Shown: positions 1 through 9,703 of the stretch, in pieces
How positions within the stretch are numbered: the first letter of the stretch is position 1
Layout of the letters: each line of letters begins with the position of its first letter
DNA from: Sphingobium sp. JS3065
Lineage (GTDB): Bacteria > Pseudomonadota > Alphaproteobacteria > Sphingomonadales > Sphingomonadaceae
Length of the DNA stretch: 64,000 nt
NCBI RefSeq assembly: GCF_026427355.1
Contig: NZ_CP102664.1
Location: 1,736,001 to 1,800,000 of the forward strand
Direction of reading: 5' to 3'
Notes under the pieces: model-generated
Database searches by the model: none
Told to the model about the DNA's origin: nothing
What the model saw: only the letters and a program-made list of their open reading frames with translations
Position numbers and translations under genes: made by a program

Positions 1-782
1 ATGGTCGCATAAGTACGCGAGGGGTTCGGCTTGAAATCGTACCTGACACCCGCCTGCAGGTTCCAGTACGGATCGATCGCACGGCTGTAGAGCGCCTGCA
101 CTTCGGCGCTATCGACGCCGCCGCCCTTGAACGCCCCTTCGCCCTCGCTCTTGACGACCAACCGGTTGATGTCCCCGCCGAGCCATGCCTCTCCGTCCCA
201 GCGAAAGCCGTCGCCGCCCTTGCGCGCCTGATACTCGGCCAGATTGAACATGACCTGGTGGAAGCTGCCGCCGCCATGCTCCCTGTAGAGATCGGTCCGC
301 ACGCGCGCCATTTCCGCAGCCGGAAAGGCGCGATCGGCATAATGGTCGGTCGGCGGCGCAGGCGCCGGGGCGGTGCCGGGCGCCAGGGCGGTGCCGCCCG
401 TTCCATGGTCAGCCGTGCCTGGTCCCATCTCCATGCCGGGCATGGTGGCCATGTCGTGCTTTCCCGCGCTCACCGCCGCCGGAGCGCCGGGCATGGCCAT
501 CCCGGGCATCGTCGTCATGTCATGGTCCGCATGCGGATCTGCTCCCCCAGCGACTGCCGGAGCGGGCTTTGCGACGGCCGGACGCGCTGGCGTGGATGCC
601 GACGCGCGCGGAACAGCGGGCAGCGGTCGTTGCGTCGGCGGCTTTCGCATTGTCGGCTTTGCCGCAGGCTTCTTCGGCGCCGGCATCTGCATGCCAGGCA
701 TGTTCGACTGGTCCATCGCCTGCGCCGCGACCGGGGCGGGGATCGCGAGCGGCGCGAGCGCAAGGAGAAGGATGCGGTTCAT
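1..782 (-). CDS. copB: CopB, outer-membrane copper resistance protein (partial)
   Basis: CopB-family outer-membrane protein, thought to bind or sequester copper with the periplasmic oxidase CopA. Translation from ATG at 782 begins MNRILLLALAPLAIPAPVAA, a signal peptide. A long low-complexity stretch rich in Met, His, Pro and Ala follows (MPGMQMP, HDMTTMPGMAMPG, HDMATMPGMEMGPG). The folded CopB barrel then begins, with FHQVMFNLAEYQ and a later AIDPYWNLQAGVRYDF. The start codon overlaps the copA stop as ATGA, so the two are translationally coupled and lie in one operon. The reading frame is still open at base 1, so the C-terminal part of the barrel is outside the window. Met-rich repeats and position next to copA make the call firm. 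Confidence 0.9.
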   Translation of the reverse strand, partial: MNRILLLALAPLAIPAPVAAQAMDQSNMPGMQMPAPKKPAAKPTMRKPPTQRPLPAVPRASASTPARPAVAKPAPAVAGGADPHADHDMTTMPGMAMPGAPAAVSAGKHDMATMPGMEMGPGTADHGTGGTALAPGTAPAPAPPTDHYADRAFPAAEMARVRTDLYREHGGGSFHQVMFNLAEYQARKGGDGFRWDGEAWLGGDINRLVVKSEGEGAFKGGGVDSAEVQALYSRAIDPYWNLQAGVRYDFKPNPSRTYAT

Positions 783-2641
783 GCCGCGTCTCCGCGCGGA
801 CGGACCGAGACAACCTGCATCATCCCGGCGTGCATGTGGTAGAGCATATGGCAGTGGAACGCCCAGTCGCCGACCGCGTCAGTGGTGACGTCAAAGGTCA
901 CCTTGCCGCCCGGCAGTACGTTGACCGTGTGCTTGCGCGGCGCATATTCGCCATGGCCGGTCACCAACTCGAAAAAATGGCCGTGGAGATGGATCGGATG
1001 CGACATCATCGTGTCGTTGACGAGCGTCACCCGCACGCGCTCGTCCTTCAGGAAAGGGATCGGCGCCTTGACTTCGCTCATCTTCAGCCCGTCGAACGAC
1101 CACATGTACCGCTCCATATTGGCGGTCAGGTGGATCTCCATCGCCCGGTCCGGCGCGCGTATATCGGGATTGCGCGTCAACGCCATCAGGTCGCGATAGA
1201 CCAGCACCTTGTGACCGACATTTTCGAGGCCCTGGCCCGGATCGCCGGTGCGGTCCATCGCCATCGGTGCGATCGTCTGCACCCCCGGCCCCATGCGAAC
1301 CTGCGGCGCATTCTTCGGGTCGCGCATGTTCATCCCGCCCATCGCGGAATGATCCATTCCGGCCATTCCGGCGCCGGCTTGCGGCGCCATGCCTGCCATC
1401 GCGCCAGCGGCTCCCGCCGCCATGTCGTGGCCCATCGCGGCATGGTCCATGCCGGCCATGCCGCTGTCGGGCTTGCTCAGGTCGATCGTGCCGCCGCTTG
1501 CTCCCGACATGTCCATGCCCGACATGTCCATCCCCATGTCCTTCATCGTGGCGACTGGCCGGGAGCGGAGCGGCGGCACTCCGGCGGCCATGCCTTCGCG
1601 CGGCGCCAGCGTTGCGCGCGCCAGGCCGGAGCGATCGACCGCCTCGCCGACGATCGTGTAGGCCCGTTCGTCGGTCGGCGTGACGATCACGTCAAAGGTC
1701 TCGGCGACCGTGATCTGGAATTCGTCGACCGTGACCGGACGCACATCCTGCCCATCGGCCTGGACGATGGTCAGCGGCAGGCCCGGAATCCGGACGTTGA
1801 AGATCGTCATCGCCGAGGCGTTGATGAAGCGCAGGCGCACCCGCTCGCCCGGCTGGAAGAGAGCCGTCCAGTTGTCACGCGGGCCATGGCCGTTGACGAG
1901 AAAGGTGTAGGTCGAACCCGTCACGTCGGACACGTCGGTCGGGTCCATCCGCATCTTGCCCCAGTCCATCCGCTCCTTGAGTGGCTGATCGCGGCCCGCC
2001 AGCAGCCCGGCCAGCGTCTGCTTCTGATAGTTGAAGTAACCCGCCTGCTGCTTGAGCTTCAGGAAGATCGCATGCGGGTGCATCGGACTGTGATCCGACA
2101 GGACGATCACATGCTCGCGGTCGTAGCGAACAGTATCCTCGCCCTCGGGGTCGATGACGATCGGGCCGTAATGGCCCATCTGCTCCTGCAGACCCGAATG
2201 GCTGTGATACCAGTAGGTGCCCGCCTGGATGATCGGGAATTCATAGACGAAGGTCGATCGTGGGCGGATACCTGGGAAGCTGATGCCGGGCACACCGTCG
2301 AACTGCGCCGGCACGAGCAGTCCATGCCAATGGATCGAGCTGTCCTCGTCGAGATCGTTGGTTACCGAAAGCCGGACTCTCGTCCCCTGTTTCAGCCGGA
2401 TGAGTGGCGCCGGAATGGTCCCGTTGACTCCGATCGCATGGGTTTCGCGGCCATCGACCGTCATCATCTGGTGGGCAATTTTCAGTGCTATATCGGTACC
2501 GCTTACCGTTGGTAGCGGGCGGACGATTCCGGCTGACACCGGCTGCGCCCACGCCGGAAACCAGTTCGCGAGGGACAGCCCCGCACCGCCAAGCGCGGCG
2601 CCACGCAACAGCGACCGTCTATCGAGGTGGGAGATACGCAT
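779..2641 (-). CDS. copA: CopA, periplasmic multicopper oxidase for copper resistance
   Basis: PcoA/CopA-type multicopper oxidase of 620 residues, the usual family length, which oxidises Cu(I) in the periplasm. A Tat signal is visible (twin Arg at 8-9 in DRRSLLRG). The copper ligand motifs are all present: HWH at 104-106, HSH at 146-148, HPIHLHGH at 548-555 and HCHMLYHMHAGM at 596-607. Residues 366-439 are a Met/His-rich insert (MGMDMSGMDMSG and repeats), typical of copper-binding members. It lies upstream of and overlaps copB. It follows the ECF sigma gene with a 54-bp gap that contains a promoter of the same type as those at 4001-4073. It should not be confused with the P-type ATPase at 5490, which some genomes also call copA. 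Confidence 0.95.
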   Translation of the reverse strand: MRISHLDRRSLLRGAALGGAGLSLANWFPAWAQPVSAGIVRPLPTVSGTDIALKIAHQMMTVDGRETHAIGVNGTIPAPLIRLKQGTRVRLSVTNDLDEDSSIHWHGLLVPAQFDGVPGISFPGIRPRSTFVYEFPIIQAGTYWYHSHSGLQEQMGHYGPIVIDPEGEDTVRYDREHVIVLSDHSPMHPHAIFLKLKQQAGYFNYQKQTLAGLLAGRDQPLKERMDWGKMRMDPTDVSDVTGSTYTFLVNGHGPRDNWTALFQPGERVRLRFINASAMTIFNVRIPGLPLTIVQADGQDVRPVTVDEFQITVAETFDVIVTPTDERAYTIVGEAVDRSGLARATLAPREGMAAGVPPLRSRPVATMKDMGMDMSGMDMSGASGGTIDLSKPDSGMAGMDHAAMGHDMAAGAAGAMAGMAPQAGAGMAGMDHSAMGGMNMRDPKNAPQVRMGPGVQTIAPMAMDRTGDPGQGLENVGHKVLVYRDLMALTRNPDIRAPDRAMEIHLTANMERYMWSFDGLKMSEVKAPIPFLKDERVRVTLVNDTMMSHPIHLHGHFFELVTGHGEYAPRKHTVNVLPGGKVTFDVTTDAVGDWAFHCHMLYHMHAGMMQVVSVRPRGDAA

Positions 2642-2680: not shown

Positions 2681-2706
2681 TACGCATCCAGAGCATCAGT
2701 CCCTCA
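2681..2706 (-). promoter_or_regulatory. Putative ECF-sigma promoter P3 for copAB
   Basis: Read on the minus strand: TGAGGG (2706-2701), 14 bases, TGCGTA (2686-2681). Spacing and both hexamers are identical to the two promoters between cnrY-like and copC. It overlaps the last codons and stop of the sigma factor gene and sits about 40 bp before the copA start, so copAB could be transcribed separately from the regulatory genes. The assignment to the local sigma factor is inference from the shared motif. Confidence 0.7.
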
Positions 2707-3259
2707 AACTTTCCTGCAATTTGGAACGCGCGCGATAAAGCCGCGTCTCGACCGCCTTTTCGCTGATCCCCAAAACCTCGGCCGTCTCGATCTGCGACAG
2801 CCCCTCGATCGTTCGCAGCACGAGGGTATCGCGCAGCGCCACGGGCAAGGCCCCGATCGCCGCCATCGTGCGCTTCAACTCCTGGCGGTCGGAAAGGAGT
2901 GCCTCGGGCGTCGCAGCATCGTCCGCGACCTGGCTCGCTTCGTCGATCGGGAGTGCAAACGACAACAGCCTGCGGACCGCGCGGCGACGCGCCCAGTCAT
3001 GGCATTTGTTGATCGCGATGCGCGCGATCCACAGACGAAACGGTCGCGCGCCGTCATAACGGCCAAGCGCGGAAAAGGCGGACAGAAAGCTTAGCTGGGT
3101 GACATCGAGCGCCGCATCCGCGTCTCCGATGTGCCCACGGATCAGGCGATATACGTTGTCCCGATGGCGATGCATAAGTTCGCCATAGGCGGCCTGCCGA
3201 CCGGCCAGAGCAAGCGCGGCCAGTTCGCCGTCCGTACAGCCGGCGACGTCGATCGTCAC
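2696..3259 (-). CDS. ECF-family RNA polymerase sigma factor (CnrH-like)
   Basis: A 187-residue extracytoplasmic-function sigma factor. Region 2 is visible around residues 22-90 (AYGELMHRHRDNVYRLIRGH, then RPFRLWIARIAINKCHDWAR). Region 4, with the helix-turn-helix, is at about 130-183 (LVLRTIEGLSQIETAEVLGI and ETRLYRARSKL). Start is GTG at 3259, overlapping the stop of the upstream sensor gene. The order anti-sigma, sensor, sigma and the lengths 92/146/187 match the CnrY/CnrX/CnrH arrangement of Cupriavidus (about 95/148/191). Located directly upstream of copAB, it probably drives the metal genes from the TGAGGG-N14-TGCGTA promoters. The exact inducing metal cannot be read from this gene. Confidence 0.9.
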   Translation of the reverse strand: MTIDVAGCTDGELAALALAGRQAAYGELMHRHRDNVYRLIRGHIGDADAALDVTQLSFLSAFSALGRYDGARPFRLWIARIAINKCHDWARRRAVRRLLSFALPIDEASQVADDAATPEALLSDRQELKRTMAAIGALPVALRDTLVLRTIEGLSQIETAEVLGISEKAVETRLYRARSKLQESLRD

Positions 3260-3696
3260 CGATCCTTGGCCGTGAGCGCCTTGACCACCGCGGAATCGAA
3301 TTTGGCCGCCTGATCGGCGCGCAGCACGCTACGCATGGCGAAGATATGTTCGAGCGTCTCTTTCTGAAGCTGACCCATCGCCTGATGCGAGCGATCGACC
3401 GCCGCACTCACCTGGGGACCATAGCCATGCTCCGCCTCGATCGCGTCGGCGAGGCGCGCATTGTCCGCGCGAAGCTCGAGTTCGAGCGCCTGCTTGCGCA
3501 CTGCGAACCGCCGTTCGATCTCCTCGATCCTCGCGTGCTGGCCGGAATCCAGTTCCAGCTGGCTGTGAAGGAGCGTGTGCAGTTCGGTTTCGACGGGCGT
3601 CTGTCGTGCCACATAAGCCCGCCCCACGAGCACGCCGGCAACTGCCGCGAAAAACGCGATCAGCGCGATGAGCAGCAGACGGCGACGGTCGTTCAT
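3256..3696 (-). CDS. CnrX-like periplasmic metal sensor
   Basis: A 146-residue membrane-anchored periplasmic sensor of the CnrX/heavy-metal-sensor type. One N-terminal transmembrane helix (about 6-26) is followed by a helical periplasmic domain. The five residues that bind Ni/Co in CnrX (known set His42, His46, Glu63, His119, Met123) have exact counterparts with a constant offset of two: His40, His44, Glu61, His117 and Met121 (LHTLLHSQL, EIERRF, LEHIFAMR). Start ATG at 3696 overlaps the anti-sigma stop and its own stop overlaps the sigma start. It presumably relays metal binding to the small membrane anti-sigma protein and releases the sigma factor. What is odd is that the downstream genes are for copper. 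Confidence 0.85.
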   Translation of the reverse strand: MNDRRRLLLIALIAFFAAVAGVLVGRAYVARQTPVETELHTLLHSQLELDSGQHARIEEIERRFAVRKQALELELRADNARLADAIEAEHGYGPQVSAAVDRSHQAMGQLQKETLEHIFAMRSVLRADQAAKFDSAVVKALTAKDR

Positions 3697-3971
3697 TCGC
3701 TGCCGCCGAGGAGCGACGAGGGAACGAGCGCAGACGGCGCACCAAATGGCGTAACCGAGGCGGCTCTGACTGGGGTACCGGGAATGACCGAACTGGCAAT
3801 CCCGATCGAAAGAGCCGCCAGCGCCGCCAGGCCGAAGACGCTTCCCGAAAGCGGTCGGGAGCCAAGCGCGCGAGACGTTAGGCCCTCCAGTACCGCGCCG
3901 TCGATCGCCCCCAATCCAGGATGGACGGGCAGTTCGCGCAGCCGCGCCAGCGCTCTATCAATATCGGTCAT
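3693..3971 (-). CDS. CnrY-like membrane anti-sigma factor
   Basis: A small 92-residue protein with one hydrophobic segment around residues 43-62 (SVFGLAALAALSIGIASSVI). The hydrophilic N-terminal part (about 1-40, DIDRALARLRELPVHPGL) would face the cytoplasm and hold the sigma factor. The short C-terminal part is periplasmic. Size, topology and position as first gene of a three-gene unit with a CnrX-like sensor and ECF sigma fit CnrY. Sequence recognition alone is weak because such proteins are short and variable, so the call rests mainly on context. Expressed from P2 (4001-4026). Confidence 0.75.
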   Translation of the reverse strand: MTDIDRALARLRELPVHPGLGAIDGAVLEGLTSRALGSRPLSGSVFGLAALAALSIGIASSVIPGTPVRAASVTPFGAPSALVPSSLLGGSE

Positions 3972-4000
3972 GCGTCAATCTCCACGCTCTCTACCGATAC

Positions 4001-4026
4001 TACGCATCGGTGCCGGCGATCCCTCA
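4001..4026 (-). promoter_or_regulatory. Putative ECF-sigma promoter P2 for cnrY-cnrX-sigma
   Basis: Minus strand TGAGGG (4026-4021), 14 bases, TGCGTA (4006-4001). It lies 30 bp before the anti-sigma start codon, giving a short leader. Its extended upstream box forms a perfect 10-bp inverted repeat (CCCTCATAGC at 4021-4030, GCTATGAGGG at 4044-4053) with that of the divergent copC promoter. Autoregulation by the encoded sigma factor is the natural reading. Confidence 0.72.
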
Positions 4027-4047
4027 TAGCATATCGTCACAGCGCTA

Positions 4048-4073
4048 TGAGGGGTGAGGCCCTACCCTGCGTA
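4048..4073 (+). promoter_or_regulatory. Putative ECF-sigma promoter P1 for copCD
   Basis: TGAGGG (4048-4053), 14 bases, TGCGTA (4068-4073), 29 bp before the copC start. It is the mirror image of P2, with the two upstream elements facing each other, and has the same spacing as P3 before copA. A ribosome-binding sequence GAGGAG lies just before the copC ATG. Confidence 0.72.
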
Positions 4074-4102
4074 TTCAGCAGGGAAACCAAGAGGAGTCCC
4101 CC

Positions 4103-4489
4103 ATGAAGTCAGTTCACCTCATCGGTGCAGCCATTGCCGCCGCACTCGCGACCATCTCCGCTCCGGCCATCGCGCACCCGAAACTGATATCATCGACGCC
4201 GGCGGCGCAGGCGACCGTCACCAATACAACGCAGGTATCGCTGACTTTCAGCGAAACATTGATGGCGCCCGTGTCCGGGATCGACCTTGCCATGACCGGC
4301 ATGCCCGGCATGGCGAACCACGCCCCGATGAAGATGGCCGGCTTCAAGACTTCGGTTGCCGCAAACGGCAAGACGTTGGTTGCGGTCTTTCCGCGCCCGC
4401 TGCCCGCTGGCACCTACAAGCTCGACTGGCATGCGGTATCGACCGACACGCACAAGATCACCGGAACGCTCGCCTTCACCGTCCGATAG
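4103..4489 (+). CDS. copC: CopC, periplasmic copper-binding protein
   Basis: A 128-residue CopC/YobA-family copper carrier. The signal peptide ends at about residue 24 so that the mature protein would begin with His25 (HPKLISSTPA), the N-terminal His of the Cu(II) site in this family. Asp115 and His117 (STDTHKITG) are the other expected ligands. The central segment 64-78 carries several Met and His (MTGMPGMANHAPMKM). Start chosen for the GAGGAG ribosome-binding site and the signal peptide. It is followed three bases later by copD, its usual partner. Confidence 0.95.
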   Translation: MKSVHLIGAAIAAALATISAPAIAHPKLISSTPAAQATVTNTTQVSLTFSETLMAPVSGIDLAMTGMPGMANHAPMKMAGFKTSVAANGKTLVAVFPRPLPAGTYKLDWHAVSTDTHKITGTLAFTVR

Positions 4490-4492
4490 GTC

Positions 4493-5416
4493 ATGCTGGA
4501 CTGGCTTCTGATTGCCACGCGGCTTGTGCTCTACCTCGATCTCGGCCTGTTGTTCGGTGCGCCCTTGTTCGGCCTCTATGCGCTGCGTGGCGATGAGCAA
4601 ATCCATATGGTCCGGTTCAGGCCGTTGATCGGCAGTTTGGCGGCAGCCGGGATCATCGCGACCCCGCTGGGTTTCGGTCTGATGTCTGCCGCCATGAGCG
4701 GAACCGATCTCTGGAGCATCGACAGGAATATCTTGACGATGCTCCTGACCGAAACTGCGGTCGGCTGGGCCTTTGGAGTCCGCGAGGTCTCTCTCGTCCT
4801 GATCCTGGCGTCGGCAATGTTGGTGCGACGTCCTTCAACTGGCTCCCTGGCGGTCGTTTCGGCTCTGGCGGCGATCGCGGTCGGGACGCTTGCCTGGTCG
4901 GGTCATGGCGCCGGGACCGAAGGAACCAGCGGCCTGTTCCACCTCACCGGCGATATCGCGCACCTCCTTGCCGCGTCGGCCTGGCTTGGCGCGCTCATGA
5001 TGCTCATCTTGTTGACGCTTCCTGCGCGGGTGACCGACGTCTCGCGGATCGAGGTCGCGCACCGCGCATTGAACGGGTTTGCAGGGGTCGGATCGGTCAT
5101 TGTCGGACTGATCGTCATCACCGGACTTACGAATGGCCTTTACCTGGTCGGCATCGACAAGATCGCGAACCTTGCGACGGACCTTTGGGGCCAGCTGCTG
5201 CTGGCGAAGATCGCGCTGTTCGTCGCCATGCTGGTCATGGCGGCGGCCAACCGCTTCCGGCTTACGCCTCGCCTTGACGAGGCGATCGCGCACGGAAGTC
5301 CTGGCCGGGCGCTTTCAAGCCTGCGGCGGAGCATAGCGCTGGAAGCCGCGATGGCGATCACGATTCTTGCGTTGGTCGCGTGGCTCGGGACGCTGGAGCC
5401 CCTCGCCGCTGGATAG
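4493..5416 (+). CDS. copD: CopD, inner-membrane copper transport protein
   Basis: A 307-residue polytopic membrane protein with about eight hydrophobic segments, typical of CopD/PcoD. CopD proteins are believed to move copper across the inner membrane together with CopC. The segment TGDIAHLLAASAWLGALMML and the nearby His residues are characteristic of the family. It directly follows copC, and both are probably transcribed from P1. The end of the gene is 73 bp before the P-ATPase start, and that gap contains a separate CueR-type promoter. Confidence 0.92.
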   Translation: MLDWLLIATRLVLYLDLGLLFGAPLFGLYALRGDEQIHMVRFRPLIGSLAAAGIIATPLGFGLMSAAMSGTDLWSIDRNILTMLLTETAVGWAFGVREVSLVLILASAMLVRRPSTGSLAVVSALAAIAVGTLAWSGHGAGTEGTSGLFHLTGDIAHLLAASAWLGALMMLILLTLPARVTDVSRIEVAHRALNGFAGVGSVIVGLIVITGLTNGLYLVGIDKIANLATDLWGQLLLAKIALFVAMLVMAAANRFRLTPRLDEAIAHGSPGRALSSLRRSIALEAAMAITILALVAWLGTLEPLAAG

Positions 5417-5433: not shown

Positions 5434-5464
5434 TTGACCCTGACACGATGTCAGACCCTAGATA
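5434..5464 (+). promoter_or_regulatory. CueR/MerR-type promoter-operator of the copper ATPase
   Basis: TTGACC (5434-5439) and TAGATA (5459-5464) are separated by 19 bp, the over-long spacer that MerR-family activators untwist. The spacer holds a perfect dyad, CTGACA-CGA-TGTCAG (5440-5454). A ribosome-binding site AAGGAG lies at 5478-5483 before the ATG at 5490. The cueR gene at the end of the same operon is the likely regulator, giving autoregulation. Confidence 0.85.
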
Positions 5465-5489: not shown

Positions 5490-7867
<2,378 letters not shown>

Positions 7868-7871
<4 letters not shown>

Positions 7872-8254
7872 ACATCGGCGCGGCCTCCGACGCGAGCGCT
7901 GTGTCGCAGCGGATGATCCGCCATTATGAGAAGATCGGGCTTATCCCGTCGCCGCCGCGACGTGACAGCGGGTATCGTGACTATTCGCAAGCCGACGTGC
8001 ATCGCCTGCGCTTCATCGCCAACGCCCGCGATCTCGGCTTTCCCATCGAGGAAATCCGCGTGCTGCTCGATCTCTGGTCTGATCGCGATCGCGCCAGCGC
8101 GGAAGTCAAGACACTGGCGGAATCGCGCGCCGCAGATCTCGGCCGGAAGGCGGACGCGCTCAATGCAATGCGCGAAGCATTGCTCGAACTGGCGAAGGCC
8201 TGCCACGGCAACGAGCGGCCCGAATGTCCGATAATCACGCGCCTGGCTTCCTGA
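7868..8254 (+). CDS. cueR: CueR, copper-responsive MerR-family regulator
   Basis: A 128-residue MerR-family activator. The N-terminal winged helix covers about 1-70 ([20 protein letters not shown], then RLRFI and [12 protein letters not shown]) and a dimerisation helix follows. Cys112 and Cys120 in [12 protein letters not shown] fall at the same positions as the Cu(I) ligands of E. coli CueR, so it should sense monovalent copper, silver or gold. The start is GTG at 7868, overlapping the ATPase stop, which implies translational coupling. The first residues ([13 protein letters not shown]) match the canonical NIGEAA...GVS start of the family. Confidence 0.92.
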
Positions 8255-8496: not shown

Positions 8497-9417
8497 TCAA
8501 TGGCATTCGATTGTCAGATGCTTCAACTCGTGGACGGGGACGAGCCGGTTACGGATAACACTCGCATCGATGCCCACGCCACCAACGACACCGACGATCG
8601 CGGCATGCGCGTCAGGGCCGACGCGCCAGACATGGAGATCGGAAATGCGCGCATCTCCTGGGCCTTCGACAAGATCCTGTATTTCCTCGGCCACATGATT
8701 GTCGGTCGTATCGAGAAGGACCGCGGCGGTATCGCGCATCAAGCTCCAGGACCAGCGAGCGATCACCGCCGCCCCGACGATGCCCATGACTGGGTCCATC
8801 CATACCCAGCCCAGATAGCGACCTGCCAGAAGAGCCGTGATGGCCAACACCGAGGTGAGAGCGTCGGCGAGGACGTGCACATAGGCTGAGCGGAGGTTAT
8901 TGTCGCCGCCATGGGCATCATGGTCATGGGCGTGATCGTCATGACCGTTATGATGGTGACTACCCGACAGCAGGAATGCGCTGACGATGTTCACGCCGAG
9001 CCCAATGACCGCAATCACCGTTGCTTCGCCAAACGCGACCTTGATGGGTTCGAACAGCCGCAGGATCGATTCGACCCCGATTCCCAAGGCGATAAGGCCT
9101 AGCACGAGCGCCGAAGCGAAGCCTGCCAAGTCGCCGACCTTCCCGGTTCCGAAGCTGAACCGTCCATTGGATGCATGCCGCTTGGCATAGGCATAGGCAA
9201 TCGCTGCGACACTCAGCGCCCCGGCATGGGTCGCCATATGAAAACCGTCGGCAAGGAGCGCCATCGAGCCTGTGACATAGCCGGCGAAGATCTCGCCGAT
9301 CATCATCACAGCCGTCAGCACCACAACCCACAAGGTCCTGCGGGCGTTCTCGTCGTGAGAGGCCCCAAGATACACATGGTCGTGCGTAAAGGCTTCAATG
9401 TCGCGGGACGTGGTCAA
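8497..9417 (-). CDS. dmeF: DmeF, CDF-family Co/Ni(divalent metal) efflux transporter
   Basis: A 306-residue cation diffusion facilitator exporting divalent cations from the cytoplasm by proton exchange. The TM2 metal-site residues Asp57 and His60 (LLADGFHMATH) and the TM5 pair His181/Asp185 (HVLADALTS) are in place. A His/Asp-rich loop at residues 154-169 (HHHNGHDDHAHDHD) lies between TM4 and TM5, as in DmeF/ZitB types. The cytoplasmic C-terminal domain (ISDLHVWRVGPDAHAAIV) is present. It sits 10 bp after an RcnR/DmeR-type repressor, which identifies it as DmeF (cobalt/nickel) rather than a zinc pump. Confidence 0.9.
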   Translation of the reverse strand: MTTSRDIEAFTHDHVYLGASHDENARRTLWVVVLTAVMMIGEIFAGYVTGSMALLADGFHMATHAGALSVAAIAYAYAKRHASNGRFSFGTGKVGDLAGFASALVLGLIALGIGVESILRLFEPIKVAFGEATVIAVIGLGVNIVSAFLLSGSHHHNGHDDHAHDHDAHGGDNNLRSAYVHVLADALTSVLAITALLAGRYLGWVWMDPVMGIVGAAVIARWSWSLMRDTAAVLLDTTDNHVAEEIQDLVEGPGDARISDLHVWRVGPDAHAAIVGVVGGVGIDASVIRNRLVPVHELKHLTIECH

Positions 9418-9427
9418 TATCTCAGCC

Positions 9428-9703
9428 TCATTTTGCGTAGCGGCGTATGACCGCGATCAGTTCTTCCGCCCCTGCGGCGCGCTCCTCGGCCGGAAGATCG
9501 GGATGCGCCACATGCGCGCGGACATGCTCCTCGATAATCACGTCCATGAGGCCATTGATGGCACCGCGTGTCGCCGCGACCAGATGCAGCGTCGTCGTGC
9601 AGTCCGTCCCTGCCGCGAGCGCTTTCTCAATCGCCGTGACCTGACCGGCGATTCGGCGCACCCGCTTCAGGAGTTCATCATTGCCTTCGGTCAAATGTCC
9701 CAT
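9428..9703 (-). CDS. dmeR: DmeR/RcnR-type metal-sensing repressor
   Basis: A 91-residue all-helical CsoR/RcnR-family repressor. Candidate metal ligands His3, Cys35, His60 and His64 (MGH, TDCTTT, EEHVRAH) fall at the same numbers as the Ni/Co ligands of E. coli RcnR. They differ from the Cys-His-Cys set of copper sensor CsoR. It should repress its own operon (dmeR-dmeF) until Co(II) or Ni(II) binds. The G-tract operator expected of this family lies immediately before the start codon at 9707-9718. Confidence 0.9.
   Translation of the reverse strand: MGHLTEGNDELLKRVRRIAGQVTAIEKALAAGTDCTTTLHLVAATRGAINGLMDVIIEEHVRAHVAHPDLPAEERAAGAEELIAVIRRYAK

Follow-up and report, generated by a model that had tools for sequence, protein, structure and literature searches.

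A putative copper variant of CnrYXH signaling and its candidate promoter in Sphingobium sp. JS3065

An ECF sigma factor of the CnrH type, a class known from nickel and cobalt signaling in Cupriavidus metallidurans, lies here among copper genes, and the locus raises the question of which promoters this factor recognizes and which metal sets it free. An earlier note, made from the sequence alone, had tied the factor to the copper genes by three identical promoters, TGAGGG-N14-TGCGTA. The window, by which we mean the whole stretch of 64,000 nt that was analyzed, does contain three exact matches to this motif, at 2681-2706(-), 4001-4026(-) and 4048-4073(+), as claimed. We consider it very probable that the motif is the promoter of the local CnrH-type sigma factor, which would act in a CnrYXH-like pathway, most likely for copper.

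The copper cluster and its three motif copies

The genes (ORFs were called mechanically by script) and the predicted promoters of the locus are as follows:

1..782, minus strand: 5' part of copB, which runs on to the left of the window (C1:1735637-1736782; PF05275, E 4.8e-91)
779..2641, minus strand: copA, periplasmic multicopper oxidase (TIGR01480)
2681..2706, minus strand: predicted sigma promoter of copA-copB, start predicted near 2671
2696..3259, minus strand: ECF sigma factor, closest solved relative CnrH (PDB match)
3256..3696, minus strand: membrane-anchored periplasmic metal sensor, CnrX family (PF13801)
3693..3971, minus strand: anti-sigma factor of 92 aa, assigned by position and layout
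4001..4026, minus strand: predicted sigma promoter of the anti-sigma/sensor/sigma operon, start predicted near 3991
4048..4073, plus strand: predicted sigma promoter of copC-copD, start predicted near 4083
4103..4489, plus strand: copC, periplasmic copper-binding protein
4493..5416, plus strand: copD, inner-membrane copper protein
5434..5464, plus strand: CueR/MerR-type promoter before the ATPase gene, TTGACC-N19-TAGATA with dyad CTGACA/TGTCAG
5490..7871, plus strand: copper-translocating P-type ATPase (TIGR01511)
7868..8254, plus strand: CueR, Cu(I)-responsive regulator (TIGR02044, above cut-off)

Measured from the end of TGCGTA, the nearest start codon follows after 29 nt for the anti-sigma gene (3971), 29 nt for copC (4103) and 39 nt for copA (2641), in line with the 29-40 bp proposed earlier. 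The copA copy had been placed inside the end of the sigma gene; this is true of its -35 box, which overlies parts of sigma codons 185-187, but not of its -10 box, which lies past the sigma stop codon.

The exact motif is expected 0.02 times in the window, and three or more copies appeared in none of 100 shuffles. However, it was chosen after looking, and about 38 other 6-N14-6 words reach at least three copies in the same GC-rich window, so the window alone is weak evidence and the three copies were ruled out as proof, being post hoc. The earlier statement that they are very unlikely by chance thus fails for the window taken by itself and holds once the genome and the relatives are added: it is conservation, and not recurrence within the window, that makes the motif real.

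The ATPase and cueR genes stand apart. Their promoter at 5434 has the 19-bp spacer and central dyad of a CueR/MerR operator, whereas the motif sites have N14; before the paralogous ATPase gene, TTGACC and the dyad are kept and the TAGATA box is lost. Since the ATPase-cueR pair has its own MerR-type promoter, the cytoplasmic and periplasmic arms look separately controlled, the ATPase being apparently the cytoplasmic arm and not under the sigma factor. The two-component systems CopRS, PcoRS and CusRS sense periplasmic copper for the same cop genes with a kinase and a response regulator; a Pfam scan of ten genes of the window found neither component. Beside the cop cluster, positions 8497-9703 hold the Co/Ni exporter gene dmeF and an adjoining gene of the CsoR repressor family, whose best NCBIfam models, FrmR and RcnR, both score below cut-off.

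Conservation in relatives and in the rest of the genome

Conservation was followed in the best 80 of 522 loci, ranked by similarity of their sigma factor; that of the window is 99% identical to the one of a Sphingobium MAG. The exact motif is present in 110 copies across these 80 loci, all of them at N14; none is found at N11-13 or N15-18, and none reversed. When up to one mismatch is allowed, the operon promoter is found in 71 loci, the divergent one in 61 and the one at the sigma gene end (copA) in 68; all three are present in 50 loci, and one locus has none. The 262 sites obtained at this threshold precede copA (66), copC (64), the anti-sigma gene (54) or another reference gene (11), the rest standing before an ORF that matches no reference (45, several of which look like unrecognized anti-sigma starts) or before nothing (22). 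The genes in the vicinity are those of copper handling, with copA in 75 of these loci, copC and copB in 73 each and copD in 70, as against two for cnrA, one for cnrB and three for cnrC.

An assumption-free search for gapped pentamers led to the same sequence. Among 47 non-redundant regions upstream of the operon, taken from 78, the commonest pair was GAGGG-N15-GCGTA (45 of 47), and its reverse complement, which corresponds to the divergent promoter, was present in 36; the commonest pair in ten block-shuffled sets reached 3-4 at most. A profile of 103 sites reads YGAGGGRT-N12-YGCGTAT, its box columns not being independent evidence because the sites were selected at up to one mismatch. The position 10 nt after the -10 box is a purine in 87% of the 103 sites and is likely the start point. 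Where the -35 box overlaps the sigma gene, Arg186 is encoded by AGG in 22 of 23 non-redundant sigma genes, compared with 42 of 1063 earlier arginine codons (4%); these 23 genes were used in place of a 22/22 count that is circular, its sites having been chosen by the motif.

The earlier note had also called for a search of related Sphingomonadales. A scan of 199 family genomes yields 153 exact matches to the motif, against 14 to the reversed pattern. The motif occurs in 77 of these genomes, the sensor in 80 and both in 64, where 31 are expected (Fisher p 9e-24); the 16 sensor genomes without an exact motif count against our reading, and 13 motif genomes have no sensor. Within the genus, the own genome included, the YGCGTA form is found in 24 of 25 genomes (167 matches vs 22 reversed), and in other families of the order in one of 16. 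Thirty motif loci were read out of the 77 genomes with matches: a fitting downstream gene, meaning by judgement CopA, CopC, anti-sigma-like or His-rich/periplasmic proteins, was present in 22 and absent or unfitting in 8. Elsewhere, the motif precedes genes whose products are rich in His or look periplasmic, a DUF2231 or DUF6152 domain being present in some (L019, L026, L046, L020, L031); these are candidates for new copper proteins.

The genome itself (5.11 Mb, five contigs) was searched as the earlier note had suggested, and copper loci account for seven of its eight exact sites, namely the three of the window, one at 1735583 that precedes a DUF411 gene just left of it, two in a paralogous cop cluster and one at 538817. 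This second cop cluster, at about 515-526 kb (L009, G000:C1:514000-530000), has its own anti-sigma, sensor and sigma genes, whose products are 53, 70 and 57% identical to those of the window, and the two sigma paralogues probably share a regulon. Site 538817 has a CusCBA-type operon behind it and is directed at an ORF of 71 aa, 187 nt on, that has no Pfam match; the operon itself is faced by a one-mismatch site, 538774. The RND protein of this operon matches CusA with E 2.9e-277 and ZneA with 6e-133. Two further one-mismatch sites precede a second copC-like gene and a DUF305 gene. Since the reversed pattern gives 10 matches at up to one mismatch against 22 for the motif (8 exact and 14 with one), one-mismatch sites were regarded as background unless they lay in copper loci. 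The candidate regulon would thus be wider than first noted, taking in the second cop locus and the DUF411 gene and, via one-mismatch sites, the DUF305 gene and the Cus-type operon.

Two observations belong to the same survey. A CusA-like ORF (L010:2558-5980(-)) matches its family in three separate stretches and so may be rearranged or frame-disturbed. Besides, a dispersed hairpin-like repeat (GGTGGAGGGG...CCCCTCCACC-like) occurs near motif matches (L012, L013, L014); its likeness to the promoter is probably a matter of chance, and the exact site 109047 and the one-mismatch sites 1916260 and 3336262, which lie inside it, were dropped as promoters.

Likeness to CnrYXH and to copper regulators

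The sigma factor finds its best PDB match in CnrH (4cxf, E 4.6e-29) and is 42% identical to C. metallidurans CnrH over 173 columns. The best PDB match of the sensor is CnrX (E 6.5e-19), and in a Foldseek search with its model (mean pLDDT 85.6), CnrX and NccX structures take all of ranks 1-15. The anti-sigma factor resembles CnrY, a short class II anti-sigma with a single span, by eye in size and layout, with a short N-terminus, one hydrophobic stretch and a short C-tail; BLAST detected no significant sequence similarity between the two, which we count against the best reading, and neither Pfam nor the PDB gave a match.

On the promoter side, the pMOL28 cnrY and cnrC promoters have CAAGGG/CGAGGG with AGGG-N16-CCGTATA, and the window sites AGGG-N15-GCGTA. 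One source gives 53286 as the cnrY start (PMC11647585), and primer extension places two cnr starts 24 and 25 nt before their genes (PMC9045368). The cnrY start falls 9 nt after CCGTA, as does the cnrC start when computed from the stated 25 nt. The assignment of the cnrY start to CnrH is not clean, since it is tagged RpoD in PMC11647585 and both RpoD-dependent and CnrH-dependent cnrY promoters are described in PMC9045368.

The locus shares with the nickel/cobalt CnrYXH system of pMOL28 the order anti-sigma, sensor, sigma, the family, fold and five ligand positions of the sensor, a second promoter right after the sigma gene and, with the CnrH promoters (CRAGGG-N16-CCGTA), the -35 AGGG and the -10 CGTA. 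It differs in that it adjoins cop genes and not the nickel/cobalt efflux genes cnrCBAT, in a spacing one base shorter, in the first -35 base and the base before CGTA, in the sensor residues H104/M107 in place of E106/A109, in the divergent copC promoter and in an anti-sigma sequence that BLAST cannot relate to CnrY. Because its sites precede cop genes, it is filed as a copper variant and not as cnr. As judged from the sequences, it is probably a copper variant of CnrYXH signaling with a defined promoter and a candidate regulon, and the earlier note was right in substance: its recognition sequence and regulon are supported by the kinship with CnrH and CnrX, the conserved placement of the sites across Sphingomonadales, variants of which are also seen in further families of the Alphaproteobacteria, their co-occurrence with the sensor and the likeness to CnrH promoters.

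Binding of Co or Ni to CnrX, which needs Met123, frees CnrH (PMC7689651, in the part of the text available), and we suppose that the steps follow one another likewise at this locus. The sensor would bind its metal in the periplasm, the anti-sigma factor would then release the sigma factor, and the latter would start transcription of its own operon, as an autoregulatory step, and of copC-copD and copA-copB. It may also start the second cop cluster and the DUF411 gene and, from the one-mismatch site, the Cus-type efflux operon. Cytoplasmic Cu(I) export would be handled separately by CueR, leaving the P-type ATPase out of the sigma pathway. We count against this scheme that pcoAB of C. crescentus, a related alphaproteobacterium, is described as copper-induced only in stalked cells and in one medium (PMC8224329, available text). 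With the sensor in 80 of 199 family genomes, a CnrH-type copper pathway would account for how a large group of environmental bacteria controls its periplasmic copper, and a promoter that can be read from sequence would let regulons be called from genomes.

Other sigma factors respond to copper in different ways. Like the locus studied here, Myxococcus xanthus CorE is an ECF sigma for copper genes, but a Cys-rich domain at its own C-terminus governs it, no anti-sigma is linked to it, and its -35 region contains AAC (PMC3107203); unlike CorE, the 187-aa sigma of the window ends in LQESLRD after region 4, has no Cys-rich tail and is adjoined by sensor and anti-sigma genes. SigF/NrsF of Caulobacter crescentus is likewise an alphaproteobacterial ECF/anti-sigma pair, and is copper-induced, but it has another anti-sigma and another regulon, and no CnrX-type sensor is mentioned in the accessible part of the report (PMC8224329). 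In Acinetobacter baumannii, the activity of the ECF sigma SigAb also rises with copper; it differs in that metal-resistance genes are an indirect regulon and that its anti-sigmas AabA/AabB are encoded downstream of the sigma gene (PMC12153292, in part). Copper ECF sigmas described so far, as far as these texts go, are CorE-like, CarQ-like, SigAb (PMC12153292) and SigF (PMC8224329). Titles and abstracts yielded no CnrH-type sigma over copper genes in sphingomonads; one may have been described elsewhere.

The sensed metal and the spread of the sensor

The sensor of the window carries H40, H44, E61, H117 and M121, the equivalents of H42/H46/E63/H119/M123, which we take to be the full CnrX ligand list. 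A set of 137 distinct sensors was sorted by the genes within the DNA examined: copA is linked to 108 of them, cnr-type genes to 4 and neither to 25. H44, E61 and H117 are present in all 137, and H40 and M121 each in 105 of the 108 copA-linked ones. H104 and M107 occur together in 108/108 copA-linked sensors and in 25/25 linked to neither, whereas the 4 cnr-linked ones all have E and A at these positions. In two sets of proteins chosen by similarity and not by context, 59 of 65 found with CnrX carry E/A within a complete nickel pattern, another five also have E/A but are incomplete or changed at other positions, and the last, a fragment, differs; H/M is seen in all 120 listed of the 2862 matches to a copper-type profile. 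H/M and E/A sensors split into separate clades at 100/100 support, of 54 and 24 rows. In the predicted structure, H104 and M107 lie on the same helix as H117/M121. As twelve other alignment columns separate the two clades as well, H104/M107 is put forward as a copper site hypothetically. Position 40 is D in two sensors from other families, L173 and L180, in which H104/M107 are kept.

These features suggest that a membrane sensor of the nickel/cobalt type appears to have been re-tuned to copper, which is most likely the metal sensed. More tentatively, and with somewhat less than even confidence, we propose that in an old lineage of CnrX-type sensors the metal sensed changed between nickel/cobalt and copper, with the His-Met pair (H104, M107) as a copper-selective marker, and that an alphaproteobacterial copper regulon may thereby have come under an ECF sigma. 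If true, the metal read by a whole signaling family could be told from two residues. Paired copper-type and nickel-type sensors would let one study how metals are selected within a single fold.

The same sigma factor and promoters might instead serve a broad periplasmic metal response, with a sensor answering nickel, cobalt or several metals, copper among them. The retained CnrX ligand positions favor this, and, by the titles of 3epv, 2y39, 2y3b and 2y3d, crystals of CnrX itself have been obtained with copper in addition to Zn, Co and Ni. We nevertheless find it unlikely, given that copA is near in 75 of the best 80 of 522 loci and cnrA/B/C-like genes in at most three, that the pump encoded at the other genomic site resembles CusA much more closely than ZneA, and that the clade-fixed H104/M107 sets these sensors apart from nickel-type ones. 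The copper reading is also supported by the Co/Ni exporter DmeF, which stands next door beside a CsoR-family repressor gene.

It is far less probable still that the motif serves as the operator of some DNA-binding regulator, such as CueR, a response regulator or an inverted-repeat repressor. Its attraction lies in the perfect 10-bp inverted repeat (4021-4030/4044-4053) that two copies form across 4021-4053, just as the earlier note had described; yet conservation outside TGAGGG is at most 0.15 bit at positions -1 to -4 of the 103 sites. Because these flanking bases are unconserved, the simplest view of the repeat is that two divergent -35 boxes produce it incidentally; it gives no hint of a role of its own, and as an operator it was ruled out. 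Moreover, the sites are directional, mostly facing a gene, their spacing is exact, both boxes are common to CnrH promoters, and CueR has a different, canonical-looking site at 5434-5464. As for functionless chance recurrence or shared descent of duplicated DNA, the many 6-N14-6 words that recur three times in the window and the one exact genomic site in a dispersed repeat would be expected of it, but the boxes are fixed while the spacers vary (103 sites), exact matches occur at N14 only with reversed controls empty or rare, and at up to one mismatch most of the best 80 of 522 loci retain the sites with the same genes, so that we regard its probability as negligible.

Beyond the family, scoring the first 10-26 candidates per genome placed the sensor in at least 17 of 398 genomes of the phylum, at least 5 of 289 of the class (overlapping samples) and at least 61 of 149 of another family (f7, perhaps Caulobacteraceae). 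In 13 stretches from other families, copA directly follows sensor and sigma in nine; in the remaining four it is divergent nearby (one), absent although other copper genes are present (one) or the system is nickel-type (two; L183, L187). Sites with up to one mismatch, at N14 or sometimes N15, stand near cop genes in several of the 13, not in all. Before the anti-sigma gene, the relaxed motif is N14-GCGTA in 96 and N15 in 2 of the 108 copA-linked loci, N14 in 12 of the 25 linked to neither, and N15-CCGTA in 2 of the 4 cnr-linked loci; it is missing from 10/108, 13/25 and 2/4, respectively, gaps that count against the best reading. One alphaproteobacterial genome (G538, L187) has a nickel-type sensor/sigma and cnrBC-like genes alongside several copper-type copies. 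Finally, in a plasmid collection, the 60 listed of 690 sigma-matching records are all plasmids of sphingomonads, and most of these 60 have a periplasmic heavy metal sensor annotated beside the sigma gene.
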